From Actinorhabdospora filicis (GTDB lineage Bacteria > Actinomycetota > Actinomycetes > Mycobacteriales > Micromonosporaceae), in the NCBI RefSeq assembly GCF_030269765.1, contig NZ_BSTX01000003.1, positions 801,959 to 865,958 on the forward strand: a stretch of 64,000 nt of DNA. Reading direction: 5' to 3'. A model generated the notes under the pieces. That model did not search any database and had not been told where the DNA came from. It saw only the letters and a list, made by a program, of their open reading frames with translations. The position numbers were made by a program, and so were the translations under genes. Below, in pieces: positions 16,577 through 37,033 of this stretch; the first letter of the stretch is position 1, and every line of letters begins with the position of its first letter.

Positions 16577-16739
16577 TCGACTGTCTCCAGCTTGACGTGC
16601 CCTGACGGACTCTTCACGTGTTCCAACTCAGTGCTTTGACGCGGTCATGACGCACCCGCATACAACAGCGTGCCACGTGACACTGGGTACGGACACGATC
16701 ACCTCCGAATGTCGCCCGCGCGCTGTCGCAGACGGTGGC

Positions 16740-35517: not shown

Positions 35518-36660
35518 TCACAGCGAACCGAAGAACGCGCGGATCTCGCCCGCGGCCAGCTCCGGCTGCTCGAAGGCGAAGAAGTGCCCGCCCCGCTCCG
35601 GCCGGCTCCACCGGCGCAGATCGGTGGTGGAGCGCGCGGCGATCGAGCGCGGCGCGCCCTGCGTGCCCGGCTCGTTGGACAGCGCGACGGCGGTCGGCAC
35701 GGTGGTGACCGGACGCGGGTTCATCAGGTCGTAGTCGTGGTACTGGCGGAAGGACTCGCCGATGGTCCCGGTGACCCAGTAGAGGGTCACCACCGTCAGC
35801 AGCGAGTCGCGGTCCCAGATCGACTCCAGCTCGCCGCCGTGGTCGGTCCAGTCCCGGTACTTGTCGGCGATCCAGGCCAGCAGGCCCGACGGCGAGTCGA
35901 TCAGCGCGGCGGCGATGGTGTCCGGCCGCATCCACATGATCTCGCTGTAGCCCTGGTCGATCTTGGTGTCGTAGTTGTGGAGGTGGTCGATGAACGCCTG
36001 CTCCTCCTCGTTCGGCGCCGGATCGAACGTGGCGGGGAACTGCGGGAAGAGCGTCTGGACGCCGATCAGGCTCTGCGGGTACTTCGCGCCCAGCCAGGCG
36101 GTGACGCCGCCGCCGATGTCGCCGCCGAAGGCCGCGAAGCGCTCGTAGCCGAGCACCCGCGTCATCAGCTCGTGCCAGCGGTCGGCGATCGTCTCGCGGG
36201 TGGTCAGGCCCTCAAGGGACTGGGAGAACCCGAATCCCGGCAGGGACGGGACCACCACGTCGAAGACGGGCGTGGTCAGCGGGTCGGCGCCGTGCGCGCC
36301 GGGGTCGGTGAGCGGGCCGACCAGCCTGAGGTACTCGAAGTGGCTGCTGGGCCAGCCGTGCGTCAGCACCAGCGGGATCGGCTCGGGGCCACCGGGAGTC
36401 CGGACGCCCTTGACGTGGACGAAGTGGACGTTCCCGCCGCCGACCTCGGCGAGGTACTGCGGGAAGGAGTTGAGGTGCGCCTCGGCCTTGCGCCAGTCGA
36501 AGCCCTCGGCCCAGTACGCGACGATCTCGCGCAGCCAGCCCGGATCGACACCGCCGGTCCAGTGACCGCGCGCGACGCTCTCGGCGAATCGGGTGTTGCG
36601 GAGCCGGGAGCGCAGGTCTTCGAGGACGGCGTCCGGCACGGAGATGCTGAAAGTCTTCAT
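35518..36660 (-). CDS. epoxide hydrolase, alpha/beta hydrolase fold
   Basis: A 380-residue epoxide hydrolase with the N-terminal EHN lid domain (residues 1-105) and an alpha/beta hydrolase core. The oxyanion loop is HGWPSSHFEYLR, the nucleophilic Asp lies in GGDIGGGVTAWLG, and the catalytic His is in GGHFFAFEQPE. It would add water to epoxides through a covalent ester; the natural substrate is unknown. The ATG at 36660 has AAGGA upstream, but that site is in a hairpin of a leader arrangement (36661-36745). No secretion signal. Confidence 0.9.
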   Translation of the reverse strand: MKTFSISVPDAVLEDLRSRLRNTRFAESVARGHWTGGVDPGWLREIVAYWAEGFDWRKAEAHLNSFPQYLAEVGGGNVHFVHVKGVRTPGGPEPIPLVLTHGWPSSHFEYLRLVGPLTDPGAHGADPLTTPVFDVVVPSLPGFGFSQSLEGLTTRETIADRWHELMTRVLGYERFAAFGGDIGGGVTAWLGAKYPQSLIGVQTLFPQFPATFDPAPNEEEQAFIDHLHNYDTKIDQGYSEIMWMRPDTIAAALIDSPSGLLAWIADKYRDWTDHGGELESIWDRDSLLTVVTLYWVTGTIGESFRQYHDYDLMNPRPVTTVPTAVALSNEPGTQGAPRSIAARSTTDLRRWSRPERGGHFFAFEQPELAAGEIRAFFGSL

Positions 36661-36726
36661 GGGTCCTTCGAGAAATGAAGAAGAGGTGGACCCGTGATCA
36701 GCGCACGCCGAAGGGGGCACGGGCCC
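36661..36726 (-). promoter_or_regulatory. candidate attenuator with mutually exclusive hairpins
   Basis: In the transcript, segment A ggg-ccc-gtg (36726-36718) can pair over nine bases with B cac-ggg-tcc (36696-36688), while GGGTCC of B can pair instead with C ggaccc (36666-36661), which covers the ribosome-binding site of the hydrolase. A lies in the leader peptide and B starts at its stop codon, so leader translation would decide which hairpin forms. Confidence 0.5.
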
Positions 36727-36745
36727 GGCTAACAGACCTGGACAT
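36698..36745 (-). CDS. 15-residue leader peptide
   Basis: A 15-codon open frame, MSRSVSRARAPFGVR, with a near-perfect Shine-Dalgarno sequence AAGGAGGTG eight bases before its ATG. A TAGAGT sequence at 36781-36776 could be its -10 box. It ends 37 bases before the epoxide hydrolase start and its codons form one arm of the alternative hairpins. The strong initiation site and position argue for a regulatory leader rather than a protein; four arginines stand out as possible stall codons. Confidence 0.55.
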   Translation of the reverse strand: MSRSVSRARAPFGVR

Positions 36746-36853
36746 CGGGCTCACCTCCTTCGCGTGATCGCCCTGACTCTAGCGCCACACACGACCCCGC
36801 GCACCCCGACGGCGATGTGCGCTGCGTCGCACCACCCCCCACCGGCAATGGGT

Positions 36854-36898
36854 GAGTCGGCGGAGGGTGAGTTGGCGGAGGGTGAGCCGGTAGAGGGG
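36854..36898. repeat. 15-bp tandem repeat, three imperfect copies
   Basis: Units gagtcggcggagggt, gagttggcggagggt and gagccggtagagggg follow one another directly (36854, 36869, 36884). They sit in the 270-bp gene-poor stretch between the leader and anmK. Confidence 0.75.
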
Positions 36899-37008
36899 GA
36901 GTCTGAGGGTGGAGACGGAGTCGCCCCCCTCAGGAGGGAGGAGACGCCCACTGACCTCAACCACCGGCAGCGGGGGAGTCTGAGGGTGGAGACGTGTCTC
37001 CCCCTCAG
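36895..37008. repeat. 22-bp direct repeat with hairpin upstream of anmK
   Basis: A 22-base sequence beginning gggggagtctgaggg occurs exactly at 36895-36916 and 36972-36993. The second copy forms a hairpin (ctgaggg-T-ggagac at 36980-36993 with gtctccccctcag at 36996-37008). This hairpin ends 25 bases before the anmK start and could affect its expression. Confidence 0.7.
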
Positions 37009-37033
37009 GGAAGGGGAGCGCTATTTTCGACGG

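Follow-up and report, generated by a model that had tools for sequence, protein, structure and literature searches.

A conserved short leader with alternative RNA pairings upstream of an epoxide hydrolase gene in Actinorhabdospora filicis: a putative translational attenuator with apparent relatives across Actinomycetes

The leader locus and its RNA arms

The window, i.e. the whole stretch of 64,000 nucleotides of A. filicis DNA analysed here, harbours on the minus strand a gene whose product would belong to the EHN epoxide hydrolases, as judged from its EHN domain, its alpha/beta core and its homology to solved enzymes (full-length alignment with the PDB epoxide hydrolases 5f4z and 4i19). If its expression responds to arrested ribosomes, as proposed below, the hydrolase would be a stress or detoxification enzyme. 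A longer reading from a GTG at 36720 would span the whole spacer upstream of the gene and was rejected, since homology starts at the ATG at 36660. This spacer of 37 nt separates the gene from the stop of a short leader ORF, which is surrounded by several RNA segments capable of mutual pairing (Table 1).

Table 1. Features of the leader and hydrolase locus in the window
Feature	Position	Strand	Remarks
-10-like motif TAGAGT	36781-36776	minus	probable promoter of the leader transcript, from sequence
Arm 1	36762-36746	minus	CGAAGG (36762-36757) and GCCCG (36750-36746); partners are leader codons
Leader Shine-Dalgarno (SD) AAGGAGGTGA	36760-36751	minus	within arm 1; perfect 10-nt complement of the anti-SD
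Leader ORF MSRSVSRARAPFGVR	36745-36698	minus	15 codons; coordinates with stop included; ATG 36745, TGA 36700-36698
Arm 2 GGGCCCGTG	36726-36718	minus	leader codons 7-10; partner is arm 3
CCTTCG	36714-36709	minus	arm 1 partner in leader codons (1:2 helix), minimum-energy fold
Arm 3 CACGGGTCC	36696-36688	minus	just past leader stop; partner is arm 2 or arm 4
Arm 4 GGACCC	36666-36661	minus	overlaps hydrolase ribosome-binding site; directly 5' of hydrolase ATG
Epoxide hydrolase gene	35518-36660	minus	380 aa; EHN (Pfam PF06441, 1.7e-33) and alpha/beta hydrolase (PF00561)

The leader frame and its strong SD, claimed in an initial annotation of this DNA from its sequence, were confirmed at the positions given. 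The nine-base arm in the leader codons, said to pair with a segment beginning at the stop, forms nine pairs (one of them G-U) with arm 3, which begins 1 nt past the stop codon and not at the stop; arm 2 itself starts at leader nt 20. The alternative pairing proposed for the post-stop segment was likewise located, GGGTCC of arm 3 matching arm 4. A further helix had been overlooked: in the minimum-energy structure of the window, the two parts of arm 1 pair with CCTTCG and with CGGGC (36727-36723), respectively, and with this 1:2 helix the layout, as modelled, would be that of a full 1:2 / 2:3 / 3:4 attenuator.

The fold energy of the whole region is not unusual (z -0.18) and is uninformative as evidence. 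Among 3000 dinucleotide shuffles, an equally good 2:3 helix was obtained in 33 and an equally good 3:4 helix in 142, while both helices sharing arm 3 arose in a single shuffle. Short ORFs with a strong SD located 10-95 nt before a gene were also sought in 1.26 Mb of this genome; of the four candidates obtained, the window leader was clearly the best. Two minor features of the window were also recorded. Another short ORF with a strong SD is located at 16696 on the minus strand (MSVPSVTWHAVVCGCVMTASKH), 51 nt before a putative TrkA-like gene, and is accompanied by a 7-bp TCACGTG/CACGTGA pairing. Imperfect direct repeats (a 31-nt unit present three times and a 19-nt unit present twice) occupy 36842-37018, between the leader promoter and a divergent anhydro-N-acetylmuramic acid kinase gene.

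Conservation and covariation in Micromonosporaceae

The family set comprised 355 genomes, with no second genome of the window's genus, and 48 of them encode orthologues of the hydrolase at 53-62 % identity. The leader layout precedes 46 of these 48 (at least 53 % identity; both counts include the window) and is missing in two (L067 and L101). Apparent non-conservation in a first set of homologues (35-50 % identity, devoid of the leader) was discarded as an objection, because that set consists of paralogues; in general, the leader is absent from paralogues and homologues at about 50 % identity or less, and none was detected before homologues outside the family (L124, L126-L129).

The 46 leaders comprise 15-17 codons, start with ATG or GTG and carry GGAGGTG at a fixed distance from it; neither this motif nor the TG of the start codon shows any change among the 45 orthologues that were aligned. 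Leader length varies by whole codons only, whereas the distance from the stop to the hydrolase start is unconstrained (36-68 nt); together, these features argue for translation of the leader. A TANNNT motif occurs in the matching promoter stretch of 41 of the 46 orthologues, and leader and hydrolase presumably share one transcript, given that the -10 motif precedes the leader. In 44 of the 46, the first base of arm 2 lies at leader nt 20-25; equivalents of the 1:2 helix are present in many orthologues, and the 2:3 and 3:4 helices are possible in nearly all. In most orthologues, the counterpart of arm 4 is a hairpin of CCTCC with GGAGG, located on the SD of the hydrolase. A 136-nt covariance model (R1) built from the hydrolase orthologues recovers the element at the same places in these, the window being matched at 2.2e-9.

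Covariation was assessed on a MAFFT alignment of the hydrolase orthologues built without structure (A1). Of the alignment cells of the 2:3 helix, 95.8 % are paired, as compared to 31-81 % when the arms are slid against each other, and three pairs of this helix change on both sides. When other gene groups were added, 6 of 8 pairs changed on both sides, and class-wide 5 of 8 did so, with 95.9 % paired versus 27-64 % when slid; both of these alignments were fitted to the model. Covarying arms 2/3 include GGGCCCGTG/CACGGGTCC of the window, GGGCGCTC/GAGCGCCC and GGGCGTC/GACGCCC. Covariation speaks neither for nor against the 3:4 helix, since this helix is nearly invariant. The spacer comparison among relatives proposed in the initial annotation thus revealed conserved leader and arms with covarying 2:3 partners, and this conservation settles that the observation is real. 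A conserved strong ribosome-binding site plus structure could also persist without any switching; since leader codons covary with the spacer and the layout is reused before unrelated genes, such a non-regulatory leader is highly improbable.

Ribosome position and the proposed switch

In the attenuators of erm and cat genes, ribosome stalling on the leader lets segments 2 and 3 pair, which exposes the SD in segment 4. The helices found here give the present element the same four-segment logic, with 1:2 and 3:4 opposed to 2:3. A leader-peptide attenuator had been suggested initially, and conservation, covariation and layout support it; the two pairings then considered (A:B and B:C), however, are insufficient for induction. 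With these alone, a ribosome stalled in the leader codons would make B available to C and turn the gene off. For stall-responsive induction, the 1:2 helix is required, and the stall must occur ahead of arm 2, at codons 1-3.

The RNA beyond the ribosome was folded for each leader codon in the 46 hydrolase orthologues. For a ribosome at codons 1-3, the 2:3 helix has a mean probability of 0.90 and the 3:4 helix one of about 0.2; with no ribosome on the RNA, the values are 0.12 and 0.70, and from codon 5 onwards they are about 0 and 0.5-0.75. This computed switch by ribosome position persists when the footprint edge is set between +12 and +18, being displaced by a codon or two. The predicted energetic effect on the region from SD to start is modest: the cost of opening it decreases from about 8.3 to 6.8 kcal/mol, being about 1.4-1.8 kcal/mol lower at codons 1-3. 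The mean unpaired fraction of the hydrolase SD window is unchanged in these foldings of the 46 orthologues, and in some of them the freed SD can re-pair with CUCC of the hydrolase's own early codons. Arm 2 begins directly beyond the stretch that a ribosome on the start codon would occupy, and codons 1-3 are predicted as the one main opening position; arm 2 is best read as an anti-sequestor that becomes available solely while a ribosome is waiting on the start codon. Ribosome position on the leader is thus predicted to change hydrolase expression.

For the hydrolase set, to which the mechanism argued here applies, a translational attenuator in which arrest at leader codons 1-3 switches the hydrolase on is considered moderately probable; leader translation, the direction of the switch, its signal and the substrate of the enzyme are what we infer beyond the computed features. 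The transcript would begin shortly 5' of the leader SD. In the absence of a ribosome, arm 1 would pair with arm 2 and arm 3 with arm 4, keeping the hydrolase ribosome-binding site hidden (OFF). During normal leader translation the ribosome would pass over arm 2 and the 3:4 helix would remain (OFF). A ribosome held at codons 1-3 would cover arm 1 and leave arm 2 free to take arm 3, so that arm 4 would be released and the hydrolase translated (ON). The likely signal would be arrested initiation or arrest at the first peptide bonds, as could be caused by ribosome-targeting antibiotics acting at start codons. The preferred reading is a sensor of arrest during initiation or early elongation, for which an antibiotic would be a plausible trigger.

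The window leader itself is compatible with a different role of leader translation. Here a ribosome at the last codons would also cover arm 3 and free arm 4, the probability of 3:4 dropping to 0 at codons 14-15 (L001), and the stop lies close before the hydrolase start, so that translational coupling is possible. A ribosome finishing the leader would then let the next one start, or leader translation would merely maintain 3:4; in either case, the output of the switch would reflect the frequency of leader translation and not the site of ribosome stalling. In most orthologues, however, 3:4 retains a probability of 0.6-0.7 with a late ribosome because arm 3 sits further downstream, and the variable stop-to-start distance also speaks against coupling, which is regarded as unlikely.

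The window leader carries four Arg codons and places R7-A8-R9 over arm 2, which would suit a sensor of the nascent peptide or of amino acids, with a macrolide stalling ribosomes at the R-A-R codons or arginine being in short supply. The peptide, however, is unconserved (MSRSVSRARAPFGVR, MIIVNDRARVSSTIG, MWTIRDLRALPAVPSV, MTTHRHSWALLSAVPLS, MNTQCHVWALHPAIPVR): most relatives have W-A-L at the R-A-R position and few Arg codons, and a codon table of 43 leaders contains no conserved run of the latter. The arginine limitation considered in the initial annotation is therefore not borne out (MTTHRHSWALLSAVPLS and MNTQCHVWALHPAIPVR being examples). When the gene groups are compared, the arm-2 core GYGCTC is not tied to one phase of the leader frame, each of the three being represented (33/12/6). 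The variable peptide, the three phases and the lack of conserved Arg codons together indicate that the RNA is kept and not the peptide; a sequence-specific nascent-peptide stall was rejected on the grounds of peptide variability and of the phases observed class-wide. Since folding moreover gives 3:4 (OFF) for a stall at codons 8-9, a peptide or amino-acid sensor is very improbable.

Control could also operate on the transcript, with one hairpin terminating early and others preventing this, as has been proposed for the are5sc and wblC leaders of Streptomyces; related uORF systems in this genus do act partly at transcript level (PMC12421871). The conserved final hairpin, however, is located on the hydrolase SD and is followed by no U-run, making such transcription attenuation quite unlikely.

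Related leaders in Actinomycetes and known systems

Beyond the orthologues, R1 gave weaker matches to leaders of genes for GNAT acetyltransferases, PrmC-related methyltransferases and a glyoxalase-like protein. A second model (R2), built with these gene groups added, found matches at E <=0.05 in 59 of the 247 class genomes, a threshold at which about 12 are expected by chance. The downstream genes encode Rox-type rifampin monooxygenases (leaders L235, L236, L238, L270, L280, L291, L292, L295-L298 and L300), PrmC-related methyltransferases (TIGR03704, above cut-off), GNATs, alpha/beta hydrolases, VOC/glyoxalase-like proteins and patatins, and are regarded as candidate drug- or ribosome-modifying enzymes. 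Against the NCBIfam rifampin monooxygenase model, the protein of L270 scored 817 bits (cut-off 800) and that of L236 752 bits, i.e. below cut-off. Rifampin targets RNA polymerase and not the ribosome. The genome of the window contains a second copy (L289, G000:C4:703942-704084, minus strand, leader MSTLTVTRSQLPSHAG) before a gene for a 616-aa protein with two GNAT domains. One R2 match (L244) precedes a gene for an RsgA-type ribosome-associated GTPase, with a start spacing unlike the others. No Rfam match was obtained for 19 loci at E up to 1 or 0.5.

Arm 2 starts at nt 18-22 in 56 of 62 leaders of the wider family. In the Rox, GNAT-B and some other groups, folding with the helix chosen by script did not display the 2:3 switch; in Rox and GNAT-B the final hairpin is located just before the SD and not on it, so that the mechanism is less certain there. 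The start position is occupied by AUU, AUC, GUU or GUC in 16 of 17 PrmC-related leaders (within L231-L307), with SD and spacing unchanged; the first four such leaders seen (L165-L168) all have AUC. The remaining groups use AUG or GUG, except for a few alpha/beta hydrolases. These non-canonical starts may constitute a possible sensor of initiation fidelity. Overall, the switch probably turns downstream genes on when ribosomes stick at translation start. The broader proposal is more tentative, with somewhat less than an even chance of being correct: undescribed attenuators throughout the class would sense start-codon arrest independently of the peptide and control a scattered set of drug- and ribosome-modifying enzymes, the non-AUG starts of the PrmC branch sensing initiation itself.

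If true, a single RNA element would tie together numerous actinomycete orphan enzymes (GNATs, rifampin monooxygenase-like proteins, hydrolases, PrmC-related methyltransferase and epoxide hydrolase), which suggests a common inducer, and inducible drug-inactivating genes could be found by their leader alone. The element would provide a clean test case for the sensing of start-codon arrest without a stall peptide, and possibly a natural role for non-AUG start codons in a regulatory leader.

The element is not described in the literature searched, in which coverage of subscription papers and preprints was thin, so that a prior report is possible; it would represent a new and apparently widespread variant of leader attenuation with a putative function. 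A close likeness exists to the are5sc and tiaA uORFs of Streptomyces, located before actinomycete resistance genes, where a ribosome arrested on the first codon of the uORF induces expression (PMC12421871). These uORFs are very short (MLV and MVGDDDISG), employ terminator/antiterminator structures and control ABCF genes (PMC12421871), whereas the present element precedes enzyme genes and comprises a leader of 14-21 codons, arms that are conserved and a hairpin sequestering the SD. In erm leaders, a conserved nascent peptide stalls the ribosome after several codons (PMC5118997, PMC11264731); here the peptide is unconserved and the stall predicted for codons 1-3. No conserved stall peptide was found and no stall several codons in is predicted, given the variable peptide, the three arm phases and the predicted opening at codons 1-3 only. 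The cplR uORF of Clostridioides difficile is alike in that the SD of the gene is out of reach unless a ribosome has stalled on the uORF, and differs in preceding an ABCF gene of Firmicutes and in additional transcription attenuation (PMC10201436). The topAI uORF of E. coli is reported to be a single uORF sensing several classes of ribosome-targeting antibiotics, in a different organism, before a different gene and with a different architecture (PMC12121999).

The WblC/WhiB7 regulon of Streptomyces comprises overlapping gene types (GNATs, methyltransferases, hydrolases and an RsgA paralogue); wblC itself carries an attenuating uORF, and the regulon is under transcriptional control via GAAAWY boxes (PMC7157823). 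Membership of the hydrolase in this regulon was rejected, as the GAAAWY box, expected 5' of the -35 region, was found in none of the 46 hydrolase promoters. In a separate group, two GNAT-A promoters (L160 and L161) contain a WblC-type GAAAAC box before the -10 motif, and control by WblC and by the leader may be combined there.
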